64,000 nucleotides of DNA, from the NCBI RefSeq assembly GCF_014066305.1, contig NW_023501039.1, forward strand, positions 558,001 through 622,000, read 5' to 3'. This document shows, piece by piece, positions 8,272 to 64,000 of the stretch (position 1 is the stretch's first letter; each line of letters starts with the position of its first letter). Origin of the DNA: Letharia columbiana (taxonomy: Eukaryota > Ascomycota > Lecanoromycetes > Lecanorales > Parmeliaceae). Under the pieces are notes generated by a model. It made no database searches. It was not told the DNA's origin and was given only the letters and a program-made list of their open reading frames with translations. The translations under genes were made by a program, and so were the position numbers.

Positions 8272-10518
8272 TTACCGGGTCATCGAATCCGCACTGCCGA
8301 TAATTTCGCTCTCTATAGCGTTTCTTCGTGCTTCCTCCTGCTCGCTGATTATGTCCTTGAAGACGCTGAATTGAGTCTCGCAGTCAGTATTGCCTTTAGA
8401 AGGGGTCATGTCGAGTCTTGGGACTTGTTTTGAAGAGTAAACAACCTCAAGACTTGTCTCAAGATTCAGGGTTTGGTTCAGCAAAGAAGGTATGGACTCA
8501 GAAAACACGTACTGGTCCATGGCTTCTAGTGTTCTGCCGCTCGTCTCAGGGACAAAATAGAACGTCCAAATCAGTGATAGCAAGCAGAAAACGGCGAAGA
8601 AAGTATAAGCCCCAAATCCAGTGTTGATCACGAGAGGTGGCGTGATGAGACCGATGATGAAGTTGTTTAGCCAGTTCGAGCACGTCGCTAATGCCACTCC
8701 CTTTGCTCTAAGAGAGGAGGGAAATATCTCGGATGGCATTGCCCAGGGCACCTGCGCAGATTTCGGAGTCAGCATTGCTTATTCAGGAACCAAGGTCAAG
8801 AAGCTGAGCAGTAAGACAGGTCTGGGGAGTGAAAGGTACATTCTGTTCCCCAGACCTGTCTTGAGACTAGACCTAGGTTCAAATAAGCAGAAATTACCAC
8901 GGAAAATACGTACTGGTCCCCATGAAGCTCCGAAGCTCAGCATGTAAAACAACAGAAATGCAACACTAACCCAGCCGGCTGCACGGTGGCCTGGCCAGTC
9001 ACTGGAGAACTTACCCACGAGAACGGCGATGATCAAATGCGACAGCGTCATGAGAAAGCTGCCCCAGAGCAATAGGGGCCGTCGTCCAAACCTGTCCATT
9101 GTCCAAAGACTAGTGATTACCCCCACGAGCTGAGTGACATTTAGGACGCCGGACATGATGAGTTGGAGGCTATAGTCCAAACCCATGGTCTTGAACAAGG
9201 TAGGTGAGTAGTAGATCAGTGCGTTGATGCCAACGAATTGCTGAAAAAACATCAGGCCTACTCCAATATGCGTCCTCCGCCAGCAACCCCGCTTGAAGCA
9301 ATCGGTCCAAGAGACGATCTCGAGCTTTATGCGGCTCATCACGCTACGGTCCTGGAGCGCCGGGTGCCTCAAAGCGCTATTTTCCTTGTGAAAGGCTACC
9401 TCAGCCCGGATGTCAAACCATTCTTGCTGGATTCGGGTATCGGTCGTCGGCAATTGCCTCAATTTGGCCAGAGCCTGCAATGCTTCTACATCCCTACCCT
9501 TTGACGCAAGCCAACGGGGCCTGTGAGTGCGCACGGTCAGCGACTTCTCTTACGGACAGCGCTTATAGATTCATTTAGAAGACTCACGAGAATGGAAGGA
9601 ACAAGATTCCTAATCCAAGCACAAGACCGGGAACGAGTTGCAGCAAGAATGGTAGTCGCCAGGCCCATTCTCCGGCGATGTATCTTGTGCCGTATGTGAT
9701 CCAGAACGCCACAACAATTCCCGTGACGATACTCAACTCCTCGAGGACTAGTAACGCGCCTCGAATCTCCGGCGGCGAGATTTCGGAGATGTACAAGGGT
9801 GCAACCATGCTCAACATACCAATGCCGATGCCACCAATAAGTCTGGCAGTAACCAGCATCGCATAGCTGATCGACGCTGTTTGTAGGACCGAACCTATAG
9901 TAAAAATCGTTACGGCGACGACAATTGAATACTTCCTAGAGATCTTGTCGGCAACCCACTTGAAGCCCGCGGTGTCAGCATTCTCCTCTGGAATGAGACT
10001 TGAGGCACAAGATATGTTCAGGGATAAATCAAACCCGAACCGTGGCTTACGACTCAGATTGTGCTACGGAATAGGAAGAAAAAACCACAAAAGCAAACTC
10101 ACGCCTTGATTTATGGCTCCAATCAGCGCACCCAACTCTATCAGGATGTCAGTTTATTGTTACCTCTATCCAAATCGATATCCACAGGATTACCTATCAT
10201 CGCTGTCAACAGACCCTTCCAGAACCCTGCGCCACTCGCAGTATCCGATACCCTGGTGAAGTGCGCCAGGAACTGGGGCATAACAAGTACGATAGAAACA
10301 ACGCCTTGATCATATCCGAAGATCATGCCCCCAATTGCAGCGAACGCTGCGCAGAGCGCCGCATAATAATTAGTGAAGACACCTTTGAATCCTGGAGGTC
10401 CGTAAGTATCTCGATGTTCCCACACCGCCTCAGAATGATGTATGAAGATGTCGCCAGTGTTCTGTGTGGGTATGTCCCCTTCCTGTGTGTTATTTTTCAT
10501 GGCCATAGCTGAAGACAT
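8272..10518 (-). CDS. MFS sugar porter, six exons
   Basis: Exons leftward: 10518-10194, 10137-10103, 9958-9588, 9520-8914, 8751-8513 and 8365-8272, giving 556 aa. Sugar-porter signatures are all present: GYDQGVV after TM1, LIGGIGIGML and YISEISPPEIRGAL in the middle, QQFVGINALIYYSP, DRFGRRPLL, WAMPSEIFPSSLRAKG and PETSGRTLE after TM12. It should be a twelve-pass plasma-membrane hexose or related sugar transporter; the substrate cannot be read. Three introns are unusually long (9959-10102, 8752-8913, 8366-8512). The last two are related to each other and to an intron at 17.1 kb. Splicing the last one replaces a read-through tail with VFKD, the usual ending of the family. The start was chosen at MSSAMAMKNN; two further Met codons follow within seven residues. 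Confidence 0.9.
8366..8512 (-). repeat. introner-like intron, copy 1
   Basis: 147 bp intron of the sugar-porter gene. It begins GTACGTGTTTTC, has a quasi-palindromic core around TTGAGACAAGTCTTGAGG, and ends with GGCAATACTGACTGCGA shortly before the acceptor. It aligns nearly end to end with the 147 bp intron at 17146-17292 in an unrelated gene. Confidence 0.75.
8752..8913 (-). repeat. introner-like intron, copy 2
   Basis: 162 bp intron of the same gene. It begins GTACGTATTTTC, contains a perfect 15-bp inverted repeat (8813-8827 with 8848-8862) at the position of the core of copy 1, and ends with AAGCAATGCTGACTCCGA before the acceptor. The exon bases before both donors are identical (GGACCA). 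Confidence 0.75.
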
Positions 10519-11261
10519 TTTCGCAAATGAAGCAAAATGATGAAGAACAAGTTGAAGATGACCGTGCTGGAATATCAAGAAGATATGGAAGCGTTGTACA
10601 AATTTGAAAACACGAGTTAGTCACGCGCCTTCGCTAAAGTATGCTGTTTCCCCACTTCTTAGAGTCTGTAGCAGCATAGTGATCTAGTAATATGATCCCG
10701 AGAAACGGAGTGACCTTTGGTCCAGCTACTCCACAGCATCATGTACTCTGACAACTAATATCAACATGTCTTGGGAGCATTCAAAGCTGGACGTAAGCGG
10801 AAGATTTTGGCACCGATTGGATCAGTTTCGTTATATACTGCGTAGGGCTGAGTGGGTAGAGTAAGGTAAAAGTACCTTACCTTAGCTCTTGCCTTATCGA
10901 TTGGCGCTTGGCAACATGACCGCCAGGTCACGAATCAACACGTCTCCAGGCCACAACTTCTCGCATATACACGTGTCAAAGTACATCTCTTTCCACCTAT
11001 TGTCAATATAGATCAGTCCATTGCTCACCATTCGGTCCTTCAATCAAGCAGCTTCCCGATATCTCACGGAAATACTCATAGATTAGAAGTCGAGACGCAC
11101 TCACTCTCTACCATCCAAAGCAGATCGCGAAGGATCTCGTCGAGAATTTGAATGTACTACGAATCAGCGTGCTGATCCTCCGTGACAATCCTCCGTGACG
11201 CTGTCCTTAAAAATCTAAGACCTCCTCGACAGGATCGGAACTGCTCCTTCCCGTCTCCATC
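10519..11261. promoter_or_regulatory. shared upstream region, sugar porter / PKR1
   Basis: Intergenic DNA between divergently transcribed genes; no open frame of note. It probably carries both promoters. A run AAGGTAAAAGTACCTTACCTTA near 10860-10885 is partly self-complementary. Confidence 0.5.
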
Positions 11262-11765
11262 ATGGCAACCTTCTTCACCGACCTCATCTCCTCCATCTTC
11301 ACACCTGGCCCAACCCCATCTATAATAGTTGCAACCAACGCCTCCTTCGCGGCCCTCCAAGTCGTGTTCCTCGTCCTCCTCATCCTCACATACAGCGTCC
11401 ACTTCGTTGTCCTCTCGTTTCTATGCGCCGGACTGTGGTGGGCAATCAACTGGTTCGTTACAGAGCTAGAAGCTGCAAACAAACAAGAGAGAGACATGAA
11501 GCAATCGAGGGAGATGAAAAGAGGGCAGGGGCAGGAGGGGATGGGAGTGGAGGATAGTGGGACCGAGACGGAAGGTGGGGGTACTCAGAGCGAGGGGGGA
11601 GTCTCGGGCAGCATGTCAGAGAGGAAGACAGAAAGACTCTTGAGACCGGAGGATGCACAAGGTGTTCTGCGCAAGCGAATGAGTTCAGGGGAGGCCTCGT
11701 CTGGAGATCTGAGTACGGATTCTGACTGGGACAAGGTTTCGGAGGCAGAGGAAGTGGATAGGTAG
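11262..11765 (+). CDS. PKR1: Pkr1-like ER V-ATPase assembly factor
   Basis: 167 aa without introns. It opens MATFFTDLISSIFTPGPTPS, the typical Pkr1 N-terminus, followed by two hydrophobic segments (about residues 21-46 and 48-66), then an acidic, Ser/Gly-rich hydrophilic tail. Yeast Pkr1 is a small ER membrane protein needed for assembly of the V-ATPase Vo sector; fungal homologues keep the two-helix head and vary in the tail, as here. The head makes the family call fairly secure; function is taken from yeast. Confidence 0.82.
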   Translation: MATFFTDLISSIFTPGPTPSIIVATNASFAALQVVFLVLLILTYSVHFVVLSFLCAGLWWAINWFVTELEAANKQERDMKQSREMKRGQGQEGMGVEDSGTETEGGGTQSEGGVSGSMSERKTERLLRPEDAQGVLRKRMSSGEASSGDLSTDSDWDKVSEAEEVDR

Positions 11766-11768
11766 GAG

Positions 11769-12209
11769 GGCACGAAGAACCCTCGTGGTTTCTTACAGCA
11801 TGTTTTGAATGCGTTCTAGAATTTTGAAAGACGCGTCACATGGCATATGGTGGTGGACATCACTGCGCGCCAAGCAGCTTTTCCGGGAACTACTTTGGCA
11901 TTGACAGTTACACAGTCTAGCTTGAAACACTTCTATGTAAGACTGAAGGCTCTCAACATCCCTCAAGTCATCCTTATATCCAAGAGTCATGGCAATTCCG
12001 AAATCAAGTGCCAAAATCCAGTGGAGGTCTTGATATGCGTCCCAATTAAGTTTAGCGCCGCCAAGCCAAAATCAACCGCCCAAAACTGAATGCCAGTGCT
12101 TTTGAAGACACTCATCGCTAGCGACAATACAACATTTCCGACACCGACACTGGCCGTTTTCCACCCACGCAAAGCCTTGAAGGCCCTACCAGAAGACTAG
12201 CAAGGCACG
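11769..12209. other. intergenic, no gene seen
   Basis: About 440 bp between PKR1 and SMD1 on the same strand. Short overlapping frames only; taken as 3' UTR plus the SMD1 promoter. Confidence 0.5.
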
Positions 12210-12768
12210 ATGAAGCTCGTCAGGTAAGCCTCATACCGTGCTCTTCTGCAGACATAGATTTCCAAGCTGAGCTCCAACTTCAAGGCTCGCCTTTTCGCAG
12301 CAGCGCTGACCACCTGCTAGATTCCTGATGAAATGTGCTAATGAAACTGTCACGATTGAGCTCAAGAATGGTACCATCCTCTCGAGCCGATCGCATTCTG
12401 ACTTCAGCTACTGCTAACGCTTCTTTACAGGCACCATCCTCCACGGCACCATCACCTCCGTCTCCCCCCAGATGAACACCGCTCTCCGCGCCGTCAAAAT
12501 GACACCCAAAGGCCGCGACCCGATTTCTCTCGACACCATCAATATCCGTGGTTCAACGATCAGATATTACATCCTGCCTGACTCGCTGCCGTTGGATACG
12601 CTGTTGATCGATGATGCGCCGAAGCCAAAGAATAAGGCTAGGAAGGAGGTTGCTGATAGGGGTGGGCGTGGAGGGAGGGGGGGACCGAGGGGCAGAGGCA
12701 GAGGTGGTGGTGGTGGTGGTGGTGGGTTCAGGGGTGGGAGGGGAAGGGGTGGTGGGAGAGGTTTCTAG
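12210..12768 (+). CDS. SMD1: small nuclear ribonucleoprotein Sm D1
   Basis: Exons 12210-12223, 12321-12370 and 12431-12768, giving 133 aa. The first exon is only 14 bp (MKLVR). The Sm fold is clear: [19 protein letters not shown], then [20 protein letters not shown] (Sm1), then [19 protein letters not shown] (Sm2). The C-terminus is a Gly/Arg-rich tail, the site of symmetric arginine methylation in other SmD1 proteins. It is a core ring subunit of the U1, U2, U4 and U5 snRNPs. Intron 2 starts GTACCATCCTC, nearly the same as the first bases of the following exon (GCACCATCCTC). Confidence 0.95.
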
Positions 12769-13066
12769 GAATAGCATGCAGACGAAGAGAGAAGGCAGGG
12801 ATGTGGGTCCGAGCAGTCGCATGGGGCTGTCAGAGGGCATGGAATTTGACTCTCCCAAAAGTAATTTGAATCTCTCCTGATAGAGACGGCAGGCATGAAA
12901 AATGCCTGAGGCTACGGAGCCTAGTATTTACTTGGTAACAGACTCATTATGATTGACTCGGACAATCTCGATTGGACATTCTTCACAAGGAGTTGATCAA
13001 TGCGCGTTCCATTGTTGGACCAGTACCTCATTAATCAGCTTACGTCTAGAATTTGTTAGATACCCC

Positions 13067-13867
13067 CTAGCCACGCCAGATTCTGATGATCTGGAGCTTC
13101 TCCCACCCAGCTTTCTTCCCTGAATGACCCACAGCAGCAACCGACCATGCGTCGCCCCACCCCCTTACACGTTGCATAATTTCTCCGGGTTTATTTTGTG
13201 CGCAGAGTAATATGTAAGCTGTGCCTCTCGCAAGGTTCAACAAATCGGGAAGCCGCTCCAGAAGCCTGTTGGTGACCTCAATGCCATCCACACCTCCATC
13301 ATACGACAATTGTAGCAGGTGCGAGTCCTCCTCAAATGTCCGTGAAGTGCATTCGGTATCAGTGATCCCTGTGCCCGGTTTGAAATATTTAAGCTCGGGC
13401 ACGGCGGGGGAGGGCACGTATGGCGGGTTGAAGATTAGCAAATCGGTTATTCCGTCTCGTATCGGACTGGCCAAGTCTGCGCTCAATGTTGCGAGCAAAA
13501 TGCCCGCGCCATCGACATCTTCTTCCTTGGTCGCCTGACACGCTTGCGTCACTGTCTGCTTGGTAGCCTCGCAGGCAAAGGTGTTCACGTCAGTGCCTAG
13601 GGCGATGACATCAGCACGGCCGAATATTGCGTGGGCGTGAGCAGTAACGAAGGCGAGGACTACGCCAGAGCCTGAACCGACTTCGAGGACTAGCGGTGAG
13701 GGATGTGAATCATCATAATGTCCTGTCGGTTGATGACCGGCAAATCGCTGCGTGAGAAATCGCGTCTCTGCTTCTGAGGAGAGCGTATCCAACAGAAGGA
13801 AAGAGTCTTCTGCTGGCTCATATATGCGGTTTGTGTCCACGTGAGATGTTGACGGCGTAGGCAGCAT
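13067..13867 (-). CDS. MTQ2: eRF1 glutamine methyltransferase, catalytic subunit
   Basis: 266 aa, no introns. It has the N-terminal YEPAEDSFLLLD of the HemK2/Mtq2 group, the SAM-binding LEVGSGSGVV (motif I) and the catalytic NPPYVPSP motif. The family methylates the Gln of the GGQ loop in eRF1, together with the zinc-finger partner Trm112. Its length is typical or slightly long because of an insertion after GHQPTG. It is transcribed divergently from SDH7, with 139 bp between the start codons, so the two probably share a promoter region. SMD1 lies convergently downstream. Confidence 0.93.
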   Translation of the reverse strand: MLPTPSTSHVDTNRIYEPAEDSFLLLDTLSSEAETRFLTQRFAGHQPTGHYDDSHPSPLVLEVGSGSGVVLAFVTAHAHAIFGRADVIALGTDVNTFACEATKQTVTQACQATKEEDVDGAGILLATLSADLASPIRDGITDLLIFNPPYVPSPAVPELKYFKPGTGITDTECTSRTFEEDSHLLQLSYDGGVDGIEVTNRLLERLPDLLNLARGTAYILLCAQNKPGEIMQRVRGWGDAWSVAAVGHSGKKAGWEKLQIIRIWRG

Positions 13868-14006
13868 TACCTGAACAAGGATTGGATTGAGAGGTTGAGA
13901 CTTGAGAAGGTGGCAGGAATGATCTGCGGGGTGATGTCAACTCCGAAATCGACACCCTGGATTTCCAGCAATTCTGCGAACTTCCGAAATAACACAAATA
14001 CCAGCC

Positions 14007-14527
14007 ATGAGAGTATCGGTACGACTACTGGCGAAGCCTACAGCTATTGGCTCAACCAATGGACTAAAGCCAGCTCCATTGGCTTTGCTGCCACCGATCC
14101 CACTGTACAGACGGCTGCTGCGAGCACACCGGAAATACTTGGACCCGCAGATGCGTCTGCTCGGAGACGAGTACATCAAGAGCGAGTATCGATCTCACCG
14201 CAATGTCGAAAATCCTATGCATATTGTAAGCTCCGCTTTGTGTTATTATTGGCAACTTCGAGAACCCCTTCTGGGAGCTAATAACACCGACAGATTGGAT
14301 TCTTGACCGAATGGCAGATGTACGCCCAAAATATCGAAGGCGGCTCTTGGAAGGGGGAGAAGATAGACAAAGGCAAGATCGACAAGATGAGTGGTATAAC
14401 ACTTCTATTCTAAGCATTGAGGGTTTAGCTAACGCGGGTACGTGCAGACCAGCAGCTTGGGCAGCTCTATGAACTCATGCAGGCCATACAGAAGCAAGCA
14501 CATGAGGATGGCGGTAATGGATCATGA
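14007..14527 (+). CDS. SDH7: succinate dehydrogenase assembly factor 3 (ACN9/Sdh7)
   Basis: Exons 14007-14225, 14294-14390 and 14448-14527, giving 131 aa. The LYR motif is in PLYRRLLRAHRKYL, followed by MRLLGDEYIKSEYRSHRNV and IGFLTEWQMYAQNIEGGSW, all typical of ACN9/SDHAF3. The N-terminus is Arg-rich and free of acidic residues, consistent with mitochondrial import. The family protects the iron-sulphur subunit Sdh2 during assembly of complex II. All exon junctions keep frame and use GT-AG. Confidence 0.93.
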
Positions 14528-14906
14528 GGCCTATGCGCCAAGCTACGTTTCATGAAGCCTGGTGACTCGTTGGGTGTTGTTCCACTACAGCCACTCATGT
14601 CGAGAGGCGATGGTTTCGGATGCGTCTCTGGAACATTGACAGACACCCCCCTGCGTCATGGAGAAGCTGAATCTCTACTTTACCGACTCAACCTTCCAAC
14701 CTTTGCGAGCATACACAATCTCGCCAGCAACGTGTGAATTGGCTTTTAGACAAGAATATCCGAATTTATCAAAAGCCTCCCAGCATCATCAAAGTGTGAG
14801 GCCAGCCCCAAAAACATTCAAAACCACTCTCTACGCACCCACTCCAGTGCCCCTCCGGTACCAACCCTGCGCTCTACGACAGACGGATCTCCCTTCGATA
14901 TCAACA
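14528..14906. other. intergenic, no gene seen
   Basis: Short gap between SDH7 and the small Cys-containing gene, both on the plus strand. An open frame runs through it into the next gene but has no features before the Met at 14907. Confidence 0.45.
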
Positions 14907-15420
14907 ATGTGCATCACCAAGTTATCAAAACACTCGGATTGCGGACACTGGTCGTGCGAGATCAAAGAGCCTTGCAAAGAAGGTCGCGATTTCTCCAACT
15001 GCGCATCCTTCACGAATGGCGTAGCTCGGAATGCAGCAAAGTATCCACAAGAGTTAGCAAAGGAGAAGACTTGTCCCAAGTGCGACAAGAACGACGAATA
15101 TGATGGGAAGAAGATTAGGATGGTCAAAGCGACGGTACATGCCACAAAGTTCGGCTTTGGACCGAACGTGAGTCATCATCTCCGAGCCAACTCTTCCCGT
15201 TTTGTACTGCATTTTGAGCTGCGAGGCTTGTCGTAGCAATAATGCCTTTTTTGGGACCTGTTTAGCGATTCACACATTGTTCCAAAAGTGATATTCTAAC
15301 TCAGAAAGCAATTAGAGGTCGGACTGTGGGATTAATCTCGGGAAGAAGACGCGGAAGTATGGGCCGAAGAAGGAACCAAGTACGATGTTGCTGGCAGAGG
15401 GAGGCTGCGTTGTGATGTGA
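14907..15420 (+). CDS. small Cys-containing protein, unknown
   Basis: Proposed exons 14907-15167 and 15316-15420, giving 121 aa. It starts MCITKLSKHSDCGHWSCE and carries spaced Cys pairs, including CPKC, suggesting a small metal-binding or Cys-stabilised domain. There is no obvious signal peptide. The 148 bp intron has a CTAAC branch site 15 bp before the acceptor. An acceptor at 15305 is also possible but gives a less protein-like tail. The splice choice and function are uncertain. Confidence 0.5.
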
Positions 15421-16232
15421 GACTTGGGAGGGGTTTGAGTATGGGTGGACATGGGCTTTTGGACGGATGTCTGTTACTTGCGTACGAAATTTGAAATGTA
15501 TCATCCAATCTGTCATGATTATTGGTCGAAGCCTTTATGAATTTGAAAATACGGCATTGTCAGAAAAAGTATTGGTAGCGGTAGGAGTGAAGCCGCTCAT
15601 TGATGATGCATCATGAGGAAGCCAAAAAGACGCCTCAACCCTGTCATTGGTCCCCACAATCTGCCCTTAAAGCAGCCTAGAGAGCGGAAGCACGGTCTCG
15701 GCTTCCAGTGGGGACTACATTAGCTCCGGGGGCTGCAGCTATAATCGTTGCTGGGTCAAGCTTGAGCTGGACCGAATATAGCCTGTTGTCGATTCGACCT
15801 GTCTCTATTTCCAATTGCGACATAACTTCCTCCCCGGAACATCTACACACCTCCAGTTCAAAAGCCATTGCCTTTCTACACACAAGTTGGTCCTTGCCAT
15901 GGCATTTGTGGGTGAGAAAGAATTGAACTTTTACTACTAAGGAAGGCTGCGAAAGAATCCCACCAAGCGATTTCCAAGTTAACGGGCAACCTCGTCCCCT
16001 CAACAAGTCGACCTTCTCGAGACCTCTGCTTGCGGCTACTGGTCGGGACTCGAAGGCACCATAGATGATGGCACGAGCTCTTCCCTGAAAAAGTCTTCAA
16101 GATATCCTCATCTAGCAAAGTCTTCGTTCAAGACAATACACAGTGCAGTCTGGTGAGAGGTCTCGCTTGAAGTCAACACACCTTGAAGAAAATCAACAGT
16201 ACATCAATTATTTCGGGTGTTGAGAGCCAATT
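15421..16232. other. intergenic, no gene seen
   Basis: About 0.8 kb upstream of the F-box gene. Open frames on the minus strand (15677-16006, 15876-16118) overlap in different frames and show no domain. Taken as promoter and leader. Confidence 0.5.
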
Positions 16233-19200
16233 ATGGAGTCTGAGGAATCGCTTTTGAGACCTTGCAAGTCGTTACCGCCTCTCTTCAAGGACCATGATGC
16301 TCTGCAAAACCGAATAAGCCCATATCTAGGTAGCGTTTCCTCTACGCAGGGCGAGATGGGTCAAGGGGTCAGTAGTCCCGCAAAGGAGAACGAGGGAAGC
16401 TATGTGACGCAAGAAGATGATGTGATAACGCAAGAAGACAAGGGTTTCAGGTCTCATGAGCGCAAAGAAACAGAGTCGGCGGCGAATGTCAGGAGGGAAG
16501 GTCCTCTAAACCTTCTCGACTTGCCCTTGGACATACTGAAGGATATCTTGAAGGAGGTTAGTATATACAAAGGGGATACCTAAGAGACTATGTGCTAACA
16601 GCACCTCAAGGTGACACACACGAGCGATTTGTGTAGTCTTGCCGCCTCGAACTCTGCCCTACATTCTGTCGCTATCCCTCTCATCTATAGCAGATTCGAT
16701 ATAGTATGGCCAGAGACCCACAATTCTATCGAGCCCCGTATAGGCGTCGATGCATTGACGTACGGCCTCGCCACGCTTGTGATGAGAGAAGACTTATTCG
16801 AACATGACATGCTTTCCAACAGTCCTACTTGTGGAGCATCCTGCCAGAGATACACATGCACACAGTGCGGCGCTGTGAACCTCTTGAACCAAACCTCAAA
16901 CATTCCCGTCAAGCCCCGAAGATTACGACGAGGCAACTACTTTTCCCAATTCACTAAGAAATTCTCTCTTGGGAATGGCCCCGCCGATTTGGTCGCGGAC
17001 TATCTTGTGACAAAAGAAAGTGGGAAATTGCTAGGAACGCTGGTCGCATTGAGCGTTGCTCGAATGCCAAACTTGGTAGGAAGTTCCCAAACTTCAACAT
17101 TCAGCGGTGTCTCCGCTAACACAATATGACAACCAGGAGTCCTTCGTGCGTATTCTCGGAGCCCGCATTCTCTCTTTTGGAGCAAATCTTGAGTCTTGAG
17201 ACATGTCTCGGGAGTCTTTACTCTCGAAACATGTTCCGAGGCTCGATATACCTCCTCAATTAGGCAATACTGACGGCGAAATTGTGATCTAGGTGTGGGA
17301 TATGCCTACCGGAATTTTGAGAGACATATGGATAGCTCTGTCATCTCTAGGCGACTATCAGTCACCTAAATTAGAGAAGCTTTGGGTGCGCATGCACGAC
17401 AACAGAGCGGCTCTGTCAGAAGCTGAAGTCACTCAAACGAATACTGCTTCACAACCTGCTCAAGACGCACCTAGCCAGGCACCTACGTTAGCACCCGCAC
17501 AGGGGACGCCATATCAGAACTTCGATCTGGGAGGTGTCCCAAGGTTGGTGTTAGCAAAAAATCATCGGGAGGAGCCTAATTTCTCCATCATGCCTCCCCT
17601 ACGTTCGCTAACGGTCCTTGATATTGACGAGATAGCGTATGTAGAGGAGTTGAGCGTACTTCTGCGGCGTTCATTGGGCAAATTGCGGGAATTGCGCATC
17701 GGCTTTGGTCCAGTTCTCCATAGTTCATACAACGATCGCGAACAACCACCCTTGAGACATGTAGCTACAGGTGGTCCACTACCATTACTGATGAGCAAGA
17801 TATACGACTACTTAGGAGATCTCGACAGGATGACACTGCTGCCCGAATATGATACTGAAAGCGGACAGTTGATAAATCGTCCAGATGATGCAACGAACGA
17901 AGACACAAAATCTCCACCTCCGACGTCCATTGCCTTCATTTTAGGTCCACCCATGAATGGAGCAGAAGTTACGTCTAACGACATGAATCATGAACCAATT
18001 TCTGGTCTGCCAGAATCCAAAGTACCTAGGATGAACTTGGATGCTATTGACCCGGCGTTATTAGAGGGAGCTGCATCCCATGAAGGCGGAGAGATGCCAG
18101 GGCCACAATCAGTACCAGAGAGGAGCCCTGTCGGGATGTCACAAGGTCCGGTGGAGCGGCTTGAGGCGAAAGAAAAGTCAACAAGCGATCAAAGGTCGCT
18201 CATTCAAGGAGGACTGCAGCAAACCGGTACAGCGGGCTCCAGAACTTCCTACAATGGTCTGAAGCCCACACAGAGACTGCAACTCGAGACCCTTGAAATC
18301 GAAAAAGTTACTCTGCATGTGATCACATTGTATGAAACGCTAGACTGGACAATACTTACGAGTTTGACTTTACTGAATTGTGGAGGCACCGAGAATTTGT
18401 GGTCTTGCCTCCAGGAAAAATTCCCGCCTCGAAAGACATTGGTCGTTTCAATACCCGTGCACTCCACCAAAAAGCGTGGAAGCCAACCTCGTCTCCGCCG
18501 CATGCCTTCTTCGGAAGCCTTATCAAAGACATCGGAGTACCCTCTCAGTCTAAAACGAATCCATACCGACCACGTCACATCCACCCTCATTTCGTTCCTC
18601 AAGCACGCACTCGCTCCGAATAGCCTCGAATGGCTGTTCCTCCAGGACACTAGCATGCATGGATCGTTAGTACCCCTCGACGCCATTTATCGCGGCGCTC
18701 TACGCCGCCACCGCTCTAGCCTCACGAAGGTCATGATTGACAGCGCCATTGTTTCTCAAGGAAGCCGTATGCGCGGCGTAACCGCTAAAAAGTGGATGCT
18801 CACCCGTGAAGTCCTCACATTCATAAGTAGTGGAAAGATGAGTCGACTCAGGGAGCTTGCGATGACTATCCAGTACAAAGACTGGCACTTCTTCCTGCAG
18901 AGACTACCTCAGATACCTCACCTCCGCTCGCTGTACGTACCCTATATCGCCGACCATCCCTACGGAGGTTCGTTGAACGTGAAGGATTTCGCCTTGAGCG
19001 CCATAGATGTTGTTGCTTTGAGGCCAGAGGTGGAGCTTTGCTATTTGGGCATCAAAGACAAGTGCTTCGAGATTCTGGAGACGAAAGATAGTAAGTATGG
19101 CATTTCTCGGAGTCATCCCTTCCTATTCGAGACTGCTTTAATGGTCGCGAGACATATTGGAGGAACAAGTCTACCATTTCACAACTTTTCTACCGCCCAA

Positions 19201-19577
19201 ACATGTCTAATTATTAATCAAATATTCATCAATGAGTGGGATTGCTGACTCCGCTAGGGAAGTCAAAGGACGGAGCTGGCTCCGCCTCATCGACTGCAGG
19301 AGGCGGTGAATCTGACAATGATGAGGATGCTGAGGTTCACCATGACCATGACGATGACGACGATGATGACAGCGAGGACGAAGACCCAGCGCCCGTGACT
19401 CCGGCAACACAGACGCAGACGCAGGCACAGGGTACGGACTCGGACATCGATCCCGTCACCGATGACGACGAGCGGGACCCTGCCGGCAGTGGGGCTAGTG
19501 TCAAGCTGAAGCTGAGAGAGATCTTGTTCTATGACGACCGGATATCGATCTTCAAGGCAAGACACAGACGGCTTTAG
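16233..19577 (+). CDS. large F-box protein, five exons
   Basis: Exons 16233-16556, 16611-17075, 17137-17145, 17293-19090 and 19258-19577, giving 971 aa. An F-box-like segment lies at about residues 95-145 (LLDLPLDILKDILKEV, then LCSLAASNSALHSVAIPLIY). A long region follows with Leu-rich stretches but no clear LRR register, then a very acidic tail with His/Asp runs. F-box proteins usually tether substrates to SCF ubiquitin ligases; the substrate is unknown. Exon 3 is only 9 bp (Glu-Ser-Phe) and is followed by a 147 bp introner-like intron. The last intron (167 bp) hides an in-frame read-through that would end early. All phases add up. A protein-level homologue is needed to confirm the micro-exon. 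Confidence 0.75.
17146..17292 (+). repeat. introner-like intron, copy 3
   Basis: 147 bp intron in the F-box gene. It begins GTGCGTATTCTC, has the core TTGAGACATGTCTCGGGAGT with a second quasi-palindrome (CTCTCGAAACATGTTCCGAG), and ends with AGGCAATACTGACGGCGA before the acceptor. It matches copy 1 over almost its full length with small gaps. Confidence 0.75.
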
Positions 19578-21782: not shown

Positions 21783-23090
21783 TTCTGCCACCTTCTCAAG
21801 CGGTCACATTATGTAGAACGAGGTCCAGCAAGAGATATCAACATTCAAGTATGGAAGCCCAAAAACGGCGGGTGCCCACTAATGTTTTGCGCTCGCATTG
21901 ATATGGTTTGGATCCAGCGCTAAATGATCGTAGGGGGCTGAAGGATTTGCATCGCTGCTGCCACCAAGTGCCGCAGGCTGGCGAGGCAGTGCTGAATAGC
22001 AAACACTCCCCCAACTCCACACTCCTCAACCCCATGGCAATCGATGCTGAAACTATTATTGCGATCCGGAATTAGTGTAGGAACTGTCGTGGAATGATGG
22101 TTTCCTCGCTAAGCCTTGCAGCTGAATGTTTCCAATTAAAGACAATTTACGTACGTGTAAATCAGTAGGTTGAAAGTATAGAGCAATGAATGGCAACTTG
22201 ATCTTGTTGATGTGAATTATCTTCTAATAACAATCATAATAACTGAGTACCCCGGACCAGACCCAGAACCTCCCTCGTCTTGCTTGTAGACTTCCCATCT
22301 ACCTTCCGAATCATGCGCAGCTTCTCACGACTTGCCCAAATTCCCATGGCGGTGAAAATTGCAGTCTTGATCAGAAGTGCCTGTTCCCTCGAGCTCCCGC
22401 AATTGCTCTCCATCCAGATCCAAGCACTCCTCATACGGAAGTGCTGCCATCTGAGCCCCTTCAGAGCGAAGCTTGTTGTGAGATACAACCGCAAATGTTA
22501 CATTGGTAGCATACGATATGGCCTCGCAAGTGCAGTGACTTTATCCGCATAAAGACATAAGGCCTCTGCCGTCCAGAGCAGAAGGCTCCTTTACTCCACC
22601 AGAATTGTCTTATTACTCAGATGAAATGCTATCTTTCGACAGCGAAAGGATCCTTCTACTTTTCATACGTTTCTCGTCCCTTGAATTATTACCTAAAAGG
22701 AACATACATTTTGAGGTACATACATCCTTCCTGTATGGTAGCGATTCGGCGTCACAAGCCATCTCTCGAGCAGAAAGCTCCTTCGCTCTCTAGAAATGTC
22801 TTTTTCTCGAGGCGAAATGCCATCTTTCGGCAGCAGAAAACTTCCTCACTCTCCAGGACTGTCTTTTCATTTGGATGAAACGCCGTATTGCAGCAGCGAA
22901 AGTATTCTTCTGCTCTTTGAATTTGTCTGGTCTCGGCTTTTCACTGAAAAGGAGCGACGCCAACTCCAAATCTGCGTACCTTAAGCTTGGTCATCACGGA
23001 TACCGGATGAGTAGTCGAATGCTACTTTATAAGCTGGGCGCCTCTAGCACGAAGCCGTACATACAAGACAATCGAAGAAGGCTTCTCTCA
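21783..23090. other. intergenic, contains a degenerate tandem repeat
   Basis: 1.3 kb between the lectin start and the 3' end of DUG2. No gene is supported. The left part should hold the lectin promoter; the right part is the tandem repeat annotated separately. Confidence 0.5.
22575..22955. repeat. degenerate ~62-65 bp tandem repeat, about five units
   Basis: Units begin near 22575, 22640, 22766, 22831 and 22892. They share CAG(C/A)G(A)AAAG-like starts, a CTCC/CTTC-rich stretch, GAAnTGTCT and GATGAAATGCCATCTTTCG-like ends. Units 2 and 5 share AGCGAAAG...CTTCT and a final AAAAGGA. An unrelated stretch separates units 2 and 3. Copies differ at many sites, so the array is old. Confidence 0.65.
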
Positions 23091-26000
23091 TCATCGCAAT
23101 GGCAATTCCTGGAAAACTTTTTTGAATATTTTTCGGCTGTTGTAGAGATTCAGTAGCCGCAGTCTCTCGTTGTCAAGATGAGCACTATCGCTGGCTTGAC
23201 CACAGGGTAAATGCGCCGCCGGAGCATTGAACTCCTGCTCGAGAAAACGGATGGCAGGAATGGACCCACCTTCGCGAATGTAGAGGGGTCTTTGCGAAGG
23301 GCGCTGTTTCTGCGATTTAGTGTCGTCCTTGCTTCTTGCCATGTCGGTGTGGGAGAGTCCGCCACCACCGCTTGAAAGCGTTGAAGATGTCGCTGGTGGA
23401 AGCTTGGGGCTTTTTAGCCCGTTCGAGAGATCCTTCGACGCCCGCTTTTTTGCTGGGCTGGATATTCTTCTTTCATGGCCCTTGGAACCCCATACCTCCA
23501 TCACTGCCTTCTCGAGTGTTTGGAAGATCTCGTTCTTGGGATCCCCCAGCCAGGGTTCAGCCTGGTGTTCTATCTTGATCGTGAGCTCGTTTGAGGAGTT
23601 CAAATGGTCAAAGGCAACTTCTAATGCTTTCAGCAGCTTTCTTTTGACCTCCGCAGTGGTCTGGTTTGGCACCAAGCGGAGAGAAAGGTCCGCTTTCGCA
23701 ACGCGAGATATGATGGTGGAATTTGCAGGGCCAGAATTATCAACACGATGAATGGTAAGCGAAGGCTCTCTCCATCTTGCTTTAAATGATGCGGTGAGAC
23801 TCTCAGCGTCGCCAAGGTCGGGATTGTTGCGAAGTAACGTCCTGCTGATGGCTTCGTACATGGCGTCCTCTTCTCGTGTCATAGCTGGTATATTTTCATA
23901 GAAACCAGGGATGTTGACTTCGCCGTTGGGGCCCGTCAGCCTTGCGAGCAATGCGATGACGTCTTTCAAAGCCTCGTTGATGAGTTGGCTACCGTCGACA
24001 CCACTATGCAGGTCAGGGCGCTCGCTTGCCACTTCGATCGTGGCTCGAATGACCCCTCTGAGGCCGTACGTCAGACAAGGAATATCATCATTGAGCCAGT
24101 AGCTGTTCGCTAGCAAAATCCAGTCGACATCCCCAATGATCTGTTTGTTCTCTTTAATGGCTTCTTGGAAACCTCTTGATCCGGATTCTTCCTCACCCTC
24201 TACCAGGAAAACTATGTCAGAATTGAGCTGTTGTTCGGCGGCTATGTCTGCAGCTGCGTAAAGAGCCGCCAATATTGGACCTTTGTTGTCTGATACACCT
24301 CGCCCATAAAGATAGCCATTGACACCTTGCATCTCGAAAGGATTGGCATACCATGTCTCTTCCCTATTCTCTGCTGCGACTACATCGTAGTGCCCGTAAA
24401 ACATAATGGTCTTGCCGATCGCCAGCCCCTTATTCTTGCCTCTGAATCGGGCGAAGACCACAGGATTCCTGGAATCCTTGGTGCTAAATAGCTCCGTCCG
24501 GGCACCCAACTGCTTGAAGAGATTCCTCAAGTAAGATGCTCCACGCCGGCAGTCCTGGGCATAATCAGGTTTCGAAGATACCGTACGGTACGAAACAAGC
24601 TTTTCAAGAGATAAAACGAGTTGTTCTATGCATATGGGTAAGCTGTAATTATAGAGAGAGTCACTGTCACACTTACCATCGCTAATTCTAGACCCTCTCC
24701 CGGGCCTATTGACGCACTCACTGATGTCCCAAATCGCAATGCACCCGTCATTGCCACCTGTCACATATATCTCATTGCTCTTAAATGATGCAACAGCGGA
24801 AGCGAGGATGAGATGATCATGGGCCCTCCATCTGTTGATGTCCTCGTGGCGCGAATTGAATATCTCGTTGAGGTCAGTCTTTGTTGTTCAAACACAGAAT
24901 TTAGTGGGAACATTACCTTTGTGATGCCATTAGATCCTCCACTGAAAAGGAGACCGTAGCCAACAGCCAGAGCAAGGACGTCGGCGTTGTGGGCTTTCAC
25001 AGTCCGAATCAATTGTCGAGTATCGAGGTCCCAAACATTGACGTCTCCTTCTAAGCGCCCAGTATAGAGCACCGTACCATCGAGTGCCATAGAAAGTACA
25101 GAGCCATCTCCATTCTCTAGTGAGATCTCCTCACTCAAGGCGCCGCTTTCACCGCTGTCCAGGGACCACAGCTTGACTATGCCATCACCACCTCCAGATA
25201 TCAATGTCTCCGCATCGGCGTTATCGGCGTCTAGACCCCTCGACAGCAACATACAGTAGACATAGCCGTAATGCGCATATTGGATTATGTGTTCTCTGTC
25301 TATTTCAAGATCTTGGCCGCCAAAAGCTCGTGTCTCGGATGCGGAGAGAGGGCGTGGTGTGGAGACGCCAGTTGGACCTTTGGAGTCAAAGAAGCGATGA
25401 TTTCGATAGGACGGGTGCAATTTCGGGTCTGGTGGAGGTCTGATGTCCTTCTGTGATAGGTCATACCACTAGGGAGGGTTAGCATGGTGAAGATAAGAAT
25501 CGACAGATATATGAGTGGGGATGTCACTTGTATGCTTGTATTTTGAGCTCCTAGATAGACAGTCTGCAGATCTTGCGAGTAGACGACTGAGAAGACGTCC
25601 CCAACGTCATACGCGGAGTATATCGAGTAAAGTCGATCGAGAGTCTTTGTGCACCAAACCTGAGCACGTCAGTAGGCTTCAAGACGGTTGGTATGTGACT
25701 ACCATACATTGACAATGGCATCTCCAGCGCTTGAAAAGAGGATGGTCTTGTCGATGGACAAGCAGAGACATAGCACACTGCCTCTATGCGCATTGACTGT
25801 CGAAAGCAGCTCGTATGTCTCGAGAGACCACACCTTCCTCTTGTCAGCGACCTTCCCATTGTGTCCTAGTTTCACTGAATAGCATACCAGCAAGTCTCCG
25901 TTCTGCGTACCTGCATACAATTTGAAGTCGGATACCAAGATGGCAAGGATCGACGGCTGGTTCTGGATCTTGTGAAATATCGTCGGAGTGGTGGCATTCA

Positions 26001-62517: not shown

Positions 62518-64000
62518 CTAAGATGGGGGAATCAGTTTGACTCCTTTGAGGTAGAAAATTCAGGTAACAAAACAAGATTGGAAGCACTGTGAGTATGCTC
62601 CCGAGACATGTCTCGGGACTCAACCATGATATTGATTGGAAGGGAATTCCGAAAAGTGTACTCACGTATCCTTCGGCCGAACCTAAAAAACAGATATCTG
62701 GTTTGACCAATCAATATATGCCCAAGCCGCCAAGTAGAGAAAATGTGACAGCTGTTGCATCGACGTACGGGAAAGGTGCCATGATAACCGTAAGGCCCGC
62801 CAACAAGGTAGTTGCCCACTAACGTGAAGTTCGTCAGTGGAAAAGCTTTGGTCAGAACTGCTCCCTGCATTACCTGATACCCTAATTTGTTGTACACTAT
62901 CAAACATTTGTTAGCCTGTCACTGTCACACCTGGCGGATACCGCGTCAGACGTGGAACTCTAGATAATCTTACTTTGATCACCAAACAGTGGAAACGCTG
63001 CAGCGAAGCTCGAGCGAGCAAAGCTGTTTGCCGCCAAGGCAGAGGCGGCATATAGAGGATATGCATCCACCAGAAATGTGAAGATTCCTGAAAATGTAAG
63101 TAGCATGCTGATACTCGTTCAGTAGCTATTCATTGAAGTCAAGGACAATCCGCAGCGACTCACCCGGCTGCAAAGATAGCACTTCCTATGATCGGCACTG
63201 GGTAGAAGTTTAGCTTAGCTCAGGCAACTCCTCTTGTTCCTCCTCACCTATCCAATGTACGGAGGCATACGTGGTCCAGGCAAACCTGCACCGAGGTCAG
63301 CTCGCGATTTGCGATTTGAAATACGGCAATAGATGATGCGCACCAGAATAAGCCAATTGGCACGAGTATCCCTCCTGCAATCGCTGGTGGCAGACGGTAC
63401 TCGGGTTCTGAACCCCCAGACTCTCCATCTTCCTCTTCTTTTTTCCGGAGTAGCCTAAGATAATTGTTGTGCCACAGCGGGTCCGTTCCTATTGCAACCA
63501 ATTGGCCTACCAAAAGGCCCGTGAAACTCAGGCCGACTTGCCACAGCTCAAATCCATGATTGTTCGTGAATACGATTTCGAAAGCGCCAAAGAAGAGATA
63601 GAGGACCCCCAACAATATCGCGGAGAACAGGCAAAGATTCAGGACCATAGGCTCTAGGGTAAGCAACAAAAATGGCCGATAACAGGACCGCAAAATAGTC
63701 TGCAAGATCGAGCGTTGCATAATCTCGATTGGCGCTTTCCATCTCTCATCGCCAGTCTCTTTCCGTAGCTTCGCAGCCTTATGACGAAGAAGGACGGGAT
63801 GATAGGTCTCGGGCACACCTAATACGATCAAGCCAAGCATCAGCGCGGACCAGATGATGAGCACATAGAAAGTCCACCGCCTGATCTGTTAGCCTTTATT
63901 CTATAGTTTGCCTGTTTGACTCACCAGGTAGTGTACTGATTGATGAAGCCTGCGATAATGGGACCCACTGGCGGCCCGATGAACGGAGAGGCCGTGAAGA
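62518..64000 (-). CDS. DHA1-type MFS drug/polyamine transporter, partial
   Basis: Cut by the window edge; nine exons visible leftward: 64000-63925, 63880-63344, 63285-63248, 63197-63164, 63107-62974, 62896-62874, 62818-62769, 62697-62666 and 62543-62518. Splicing rebuilds DHA1 signatures: SPFIGPPVGPIIAGFINQY, VPETYHPVLLRHKA, GLFWFAWTTYASVHWIVP, GIFTFLVDAYPLYAASALAAN and ANSFARSSFAAAFPLFG, then MYNKLGYQWATTLLAGLTV. It should export drugs, polyamines or small toxins across the plasma membrane. Introns are many and exons small (23-50 bp) toward the end. The last intron is optional: reading through gives a 45-residue tail instead of the short VKLIPPS end. The acceptor at 63108 was chosen because it restores the frame. 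Confidence 0.82.
62544..62665 (-). repeat. intron with introner-like palindromic core
   Basis: 122 bp terminal intron of the transporter with a perfect 20-bp palindrome (62599-62618, TCCCGAGACATGTCTCGGGA). About 30 bases around it, starting TTGAGTC and ending GGGAG...ACTC, match the core of the intron at 17146-17292. The ends are different. Confidence 0.55.

Follow-up and report, generated by a model that had tools for sequence, protein, structure and literature searches.

Introner-like introns in unrelated genes of the lichen-forming fungus Letharia columbiana

Three introns, I1 and I2 in a sugar porter gene and I3 in an F-box gene, lie in a stretch of 64,000 nucleotides (contig NW_023501039.1, positions 558,001 to 622,000) from the genome of the wolf lichen fungus Letharia columbiana, an ascomycete of the Parmeliaceae; we call this stretch the window. 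A preliminary description of this DNA had presented them as related from end to end and as possible members of a family of introner-like elements (ILEs), that is, of introns that multiply as repeats. We find that the elements are almost certainly introner-like, and we observed roughly 200 distinct copies of them in the genome. We are fairly confident that the best explanation is an introner-like family in L. columbiana, for which RNA-borne insertion is the likeliest route, followed by decay of the hairpin.

Related introns and their copies in the genome

The boundaries proposed for I1, I2, and I3 were correct to the single base, with GT..AG ends in all three, and I1 and I3 do share a length of 147 bp. 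In global alignments compared with 500 dinucleotide shuffles per pair, the three introns reached z 13.2 (I1-I3), 7.3 (I2-I3), and 5.6 (I1-I2), and no shuffle matched an observed score. The six pairs formed by four ordinary introns (54, 56, 61, and 67 bp) gave z of just 0.2 to 2.9, so the end-to-end kinship claimed for the three, above that of random introns, holds. The similarity runs from donor to acceptor as described, but the core said to be shared by all three is not identical among them, since the exact TGAGACAWGTCT is absent from I2, which has AAGACAGGTCT and then TTTCACTC. BLAST inside the window paired I1 with I3 (73%, E 9.8e-14) and gave no match of I2 to either of them, and a profile hidden Markov model (HMM) of the A family, trained without I2, recovered I2 at E 2.1e-12. 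I1 and I3 are one subfamily (A), and I2 is a separate lineage.

The genome that we searched for further copies comprises 52,243,142 bases in 161 contigs, and many were found. With the introns themselves as queries, 40 of 89 candidates were scored for I3, and the searches with I2 and I1 gave 18 and 14 rows, respectively. A strict pattern, GTACGTAN{98,128}CAATRCTGAC, matched the genome 94 times and its reversed control 0 times, and a loose one, GTAYGTN{99,129}MAATRCTGAC, gave 138 matches against 1 in the control. Two profile HMMs, run on 249,338 bp made up of the window and of loci selected for containing copies, returned 122 non-overlapping matches and none in the reversed sequence. As 51 of the 122 also fit the loose pattern, the distinct copies observed number roughly 200 (138 + 122 - 51, minus a small number of entries counted twice or lying on duplicated contigs). 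The loose pattern fits 9 of 53 copies that no search had targeted, and an estimate from the 48 of these outside the window comes to 736; the genome total is thus probably several hundred copies, as judged from a small, gene-biased sample. For the analyses below, we set aside 11 of 68 BLAST clusters whose ends were not settled, together with 3 duplicates, which left 54 fitted copies; from the 122 HMM matches we omitted 20 without settled ends (leaving 102) and then 3 that were short-flanked or duplicate (leaving 99). Two individual loci may be mentioned here: three same-strand pattern matches fall within about 670 bp on contig C34 (G000, 290641-291311), and one introner (L005, C2:1061508-1061654) lies inside a C-5 cytosine-specific DNA methylase gene (PF00145).

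Excision, gain, and age

Joining the flanks at the GT..AG ends left a frame open over 150 + 150 nt in sense in 49 of the 99 copies with settled ends. For the same 99, shifting the join by 1 or 2 nt left 19 open in either case, reading in antisense left 8, and re-pairing the flanks at random left a mean of 30.5 and a maximum of 41 (1000 permutations). The earlier set of 54 copies had behaved alike: 29 were open, against 9 and 11 with shifted joins, 4 in antisense, and a mean of 15.8 (maximum 27) with re-paired flanks. Open flanks of at least 25 amino acids on either side were present in 45 of these 54, and the 20 with the longest flanks were taken to Pfam, their frames being picked by openness and some of the flanks coming from the same gene. 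In 13 of the 20 spliced flanks an above-cut-off family ran uninterrupted over the junction, as did Aldedh (residues 1-180 against profile positions 212-389) and CLN3 (38-180 against 231-374), with fewer than ten residues beyond the junction on one side in four of the 13 (MgsA_C, Methyltransf_11, Usp, and PNGase_A_C). The remaining seven comprised four without a Pfam family and three with sub-cut-off matches only. The hosts are unrelated and include aldehyde dehydrogenase, CLN3, GH64, a methyltransferase, an amino acid permease, MgsA, the sugar porter, and others. Of 48 pairs of neighbouring copies less than 1 kb apart, 46 shared a strand, and a donor and an acceptor motif both stood near the model ends in 104 of the 122 HMM matches, a raw count with no chance rate alongside. 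All this agrees with the description of the copies as exactly bounded sense-strand introns in unrelated genes.

The proteins of relatives align without gaps at the I1, I2, and I3 joins. At I3, the one site for which we have empty-site evidence of gain, five relatives lack the intron: P0005, P0007, P0012, and P0028 read ESF/VWD across the site and P0006 reads EAF/VWD (the slash marks the join), with nothing added or lost. Judging from extra residues, the frames of these five seem to traverse the preceding ordinary intron or its tail. I2 probably is older and common to a relative. The protein P0161, 91 to 93% identical, ends in VRTFHSYFSPICTKIQV exactly at the I2 site, and the mean number of identical residues out of 17 between this peptide and translated introner starts reached 9.0 in family D (4 copies), 5.7 in B, 4.2 in A, and 3.0 in C; a copy belonging to none of the four families also scores 10. 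From this comparison P0161 appears to have a family-D-like introner there. In another relative, P0001, ETKD is joined to RKSKDG as predicted from excision of 19091-19257, and the source of that sequence may be other than RNA.

The family had also been proposed to be active or recent. Near-identical copies are a mark of activity, and decayed ILE families without it have been reported (PMC4457414). In L. columbiana we saw none: among the 54 fitted copies the best pairwise identity was 94.6% in A and 92.3% in B, and the distance of copies to their family consensus ranged from 5 to 29%. Because of these values the family looks recent to old and not in mid-burst, and these copies do not support the word active.

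Folding, decay, and mode of insertion

Average-linkage clustering of 102 copies at 30% distance, with a subfamily defined as three or more copies, gave A (43 copies), B (26), C (5), and D (4) and left 24 over; A splits further at 27%. The consensuses have in common the GTACGT donor and AATRCTGAC near the acceptor, and they fold with -47.0 (A1), -54.7 (A2), -64.8 (B), -47.8 (C), and -50.5 kcal/mol (D), at z -4.4 to -8.7. The fold of the B consensus begins one base inside either end. Single copies, compared with 40 shuffles each, had z under -2 in 24 of 39 cases in A and 14 of 15 in B, and I2 has a strong hairpin (-61.8 kcal/mol, z -6.8). Three consensuses possess a perfect near-terminal inverted repeat, of 9 nt in B, 10 nt in A2, and 12 nt in D; its 3′ arm lies between the branch motif and the acceptor and overlaps the motif's end.

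In resident copies the branch motif persists but the hairpin does not, as CTGAC is conserved and stem pairs are retained at the level of independent decay. Stem pairs kept numbered 808 of 929 where independent change predicts 810.1 (A, 24 close members) and 492 of 568 where it predicts 495.7 (B, 13), and deviation from the consensus was 10.5% (A) and 11.2% (B) in the stem and 13.1% and 11.9% in unpaired positions. In the 115 of 122 HMM matches considered without the end-finding rule, CTGAC deviated in 3 of 250 letters (A) and 7 of 305 (B), against 16 to 37% in other columns; because a profile favours conserved columns, this result retains some bias. By score, the deviations were 1 of 230 in high-scoring and 2 of 20 in low-scoring A matches, and 0 of 185 and 7 of 120 in B. 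We infer a role of the hairpin in movement rather than in splicing, with the caveat that an ancestral fold is partly recovered by the mere making of a consensus.

We found no target-site duplication (TSD) of 3, 4, or 5 nt in any of 99 copies, where chance would give 1.5, 0.4, and 0.1. A TSD-making transposase would mark nearly every young copy, so this count speaks against such insertion. An AG/G rule of insertion-site preference was not visible in the 54 copies, and a mild excess of G surrounds the insertion site in the 99. Around 54 sites we also looked for displaced 4-nt repeats. The two highest of 64 cells contained 2 against an expectation of 0.2, which we take as noise. The lack of TSDs, the sense bias, and the seamless joins together fit RNA-based models better than insertion by a transposase, and we lean, if only slightly, toward RNA-mediated movement rather than DNA transposition. 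Two RNA-based models have been put forward for fungal introners, reverse splicing and the joining of a folded intron RNA at a break (PMC8469720, PMC9860276). In L. columbiana the mobile unit would be the intron itself, of about 147 to 160 nt, equipped with a donor (GTACGTA), a branch block (GCAATRCTGAC), and an acceptor of its own. With its own splice signals, an insertion into an exon would immediately become a clean intron, for which the boundaries, the frame, and one empty site are at hand. The consensus is predicted to fold back over most of its length and so to place the donor next to the acceptor; once excised, the folded RNA of the intron might then re-enter exon DNA at a break or via reverse splicing and be copied into DNA with no TSD. 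After insertion the branch motif would be constrained while the hairpin decays, and the copy would turn into an ordinary-looking long intron.

A number of observations weigh against this reading. In half of the copies (50 of 99) the frame was closed somewhere within the ±150 nt, and splicing appears from reading frame, protein homology, and the proteins of relatives rather than from RNA reads. The fold of I1 was not above chance (z 0.0 and +0.2), nor was that of two decayed copies. The A1 and C consensuses have no comparable near-terminal repeat (5 and 4 nt only), and a repeat of at least 8 nt occurs in only 16 of 102 single copies. RNAalifold on whole families showed hardly any structure, with energies no better than those of column-shuffled alignments (-0.12 vs. 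-0.28 for A and -3.31 vs. -5.15 for B). Between subfamilies, 59 of 97 both-side changes still pair, not clearly more than the 21 of 38 within them, and the cells are non-independent. Fold energy and divergence were uncorrelated (Spearman 0.10 for A and -0.13 for B). An apparent slow divergence of the splice signals (5.2 and 5.5%) had to be rejected as mostly an artefact of the end-finding rule: columns selected by the rule differ by 2.0 and 2.4%, unselected adjoining ones by 7.7% (A) and 11.0% (B), and the rest by 11.2 and 11.4%. Finally, near-terminal inverted repeats also fit a DNA element, and the sense bias could stem from selection.

These last two points belong to the strongest rival, that the copies are non-autonomous DNA transposons, i.e., introners resembling miniature inverted-repeat transposable elements, which a transposase moves and whose antisense or intergenic copies were lost by selection or went unseen. 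The inverted repeats of the B, A2, and D consensuses would suit it, as would the copy at 62527-62661, which has no clear coding flanks, and most introner families outside the ascomycetes are reported to bear marks of DNA transposition (PMC9860276). It has to contend with the absence of 3-5 nt flanking duplications from all 99 copies, the gap-free alignment of relatives' proteins at the I1, I2, and I3 joins, the lack of a clear insertion motif, and the bias toward sense (49 vs. 8 open at ±150 nt), and we regard it as rather unlikely. Secondary insertion of a repeat into pre-existing introns is very improbable; I3 does lie just 9 nt from an ordinary intron, but in both A and B the similarity covers the whole intron, from the donor's first G through to the acceptor, and for I3 this explanation is ruled out, its site being uninterrupted exon in five relatives. 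Shared descent through duplication of genes or segments we consider less probable still. The contig pairs C68/C101 and C77/C109 do carry duplicated loci with the same flanks (L017/L016 and L043/L042), near-identical and either uncollapsed variants or a recent segmental duplication, and three copies were removed as duplicates, but the hosts and flanks of the copies are otherwise unrelated, which refutes it. Donor, branch-site, and acceptor signals are common to fungal introns generally, but chance resemblance through them is negligible, refuted by z of 5.6 to 13.2 against 0.2 to 2.9 and by 138 pattern matches against 1 in the control.

The preferred reading, an RNA-borne introner family, has counterparts in other fungi. 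The ILEs of Dothideomycetes (Fulvia, Dothistroma, and Zymoseptoria) are likewise multi-copy spliceosomal introns in unrelated genes, with several families per genome and decay to ordinary-looking introns (PMC4457414); they belong to another fungal class, and their best identities are reported as 98% (Zymoseptoria) and 99% (Fulvia) against our 94.6%. The likeness drawn here is one of description. The sister stwintrons and cropped sister introns of Hypoxylaceae and Xylariaceae are described as also occupying new exon sites seamlessly, with no TSD, on the coding strand, and with inverted repeats (PMC8469720, PMC12403724). In NTIRE-9 and NTIRE-10 of the Xylariales sister stwintrons the 3′ arm stands between branch point and acceptor, a layout that the 9-12 nt near-terminal repeat of three of our five consensuses resembles (PMC12403724). 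The L. columbiana copies differ in that the terminal stem encloses a central hairpin, and they behave as single GT..AG introns, one removal being enough for the frame. Among aquatic eukaryotes, including algae and dinoflagellates, introners are also introns that multiply as repeats, and TSDs are reported in many of their families (49 of 130 scored), in contrast to our 99 copies, while ascomycete introner families are described as having neither terminal inverted repeats nor TSDs (PMC9860276). A bolder picture, to which we give somewhat less than even credence, would have several hundred introns gained from one self-copying lineage that moves as folded RNA, with the near-terminal repeat and the hairpin needed for movement and not for splicing, a terminal architecture that evolved or persisted independently of that in the stwintrons of Xylariales, and worn introners behind many of the long ordinary introns.

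Spliceosomal introns are known from lichen ribosomal DNA. In the open-access literature that we searched we found no report of introners in Lecanoromycetes or Letharia, and the main text of PMC9860276 mentions neither Letharia, lichens, nor Lecanoromycetes, its species tables possibly including Letharia. The suggestion that the family is new can therefore stand at the family level for the Lecanoromycetes, as far as literature searches show, while the kind itself was already known. Our results extend a rare route of intron creation to lichen-forming fungi. The origin of new spliceosomal introns is a long-open question, in which fungal introners are described as an outlier group without transposon marks, and the Lecanoromycetes offer an independent system whose introns have the same sense bias, seamless joins, and hairpins and fall into several subfamilies at many stages of decay. 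This suggests a means to tell the requirements of insertion (perhaps the fold) from those of splicing (the branch motif and the ends), and sister Letharia strains would let single gains be dated and tested.

Host genes and further copies in the window

Removal of the introns from the sugar porter gene gave the joins SFGASWGP/VPWAMPSEIFP and RTLEAMD/HVF, and removal of I3 from the F-box gene gave NLESF/VWDMP. Among named relatives, the closest to the F-box protein is from Alectoria fallacina (78%). A 9-nt exon (ESF, 17137-17145, + strand) stands between the ordinary 61-bp intron and I3. The profile HMMs gave eight matches in the window, namely I1, I2, I3, and five further copies or candidates (Table 1); I2 had been used to train the B model, I1 and I3 to train the A model, and the other five to train neither.

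Table 1. Introners, candidate copies, and host genes in the window
Feature	Position	Strand	Remarks
I1, introner, subfamily A, 147 bp	8366..8512	-	Sugar porter intron 5; donor GTACGTG, block GGCAATACTGAC, acceptor TTCAG
I2, introner, 162 bp	8752..8913	-	Sugar porter intron 4; assigned to B via its 3′ end
I3, introner, subfamily A, 147 bp	17146..17292	+	F-box gene intron 3
Decayed introner, 144 bp	9959..10102	-	Sugar porter intron 2; GTGAGT..TTCAAG; z 4.6 to I2
Decayed introner	19091..19257	+	F-box gene intron 4; B HMM 34.8 bits, E 5e-10; removal gives ETKDRKSKDG
Candidate introner	62527..62661	-	B HMM 34.6 bits, E 5.5e-10; core palindrome present
Candidate partial introner	22702..22802	+	28.0 bits; further weak partial matches around
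Candidate decayed introner	15177..15308	+	B HMM 24.8 bits; GTGAGT just upstream; ends provisional
Sugar porter host gene (PF00083)	8272..10518	-	556 aa after splicing; five introns, three of them introners
F-box protein host gene	16233..19577	+	Four introns, two of them introners

The hairpin of the copy at 9959..10102 was not above chance, and Rfam gave no match at the gathering threshold in the window. Around the candidate partial introner, partial core matches cluster on the + strand between 22555 and 22883 (22576-22621, 22631-22703, 22702-22802, and 22809-22865), in a stretch that looks non-coding and in which Tandem Repeats Finder, run on 22300-23300, found nothing; it is perhaps a run of introner-derived segments. 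The candidate at 62527-62661 (- strand) retains an intact core palindrome, GAGTCCCGAGACATGTCTCGGGAGC, between flanks that are not clearly coding and is possibly a copy outside coding sequence.

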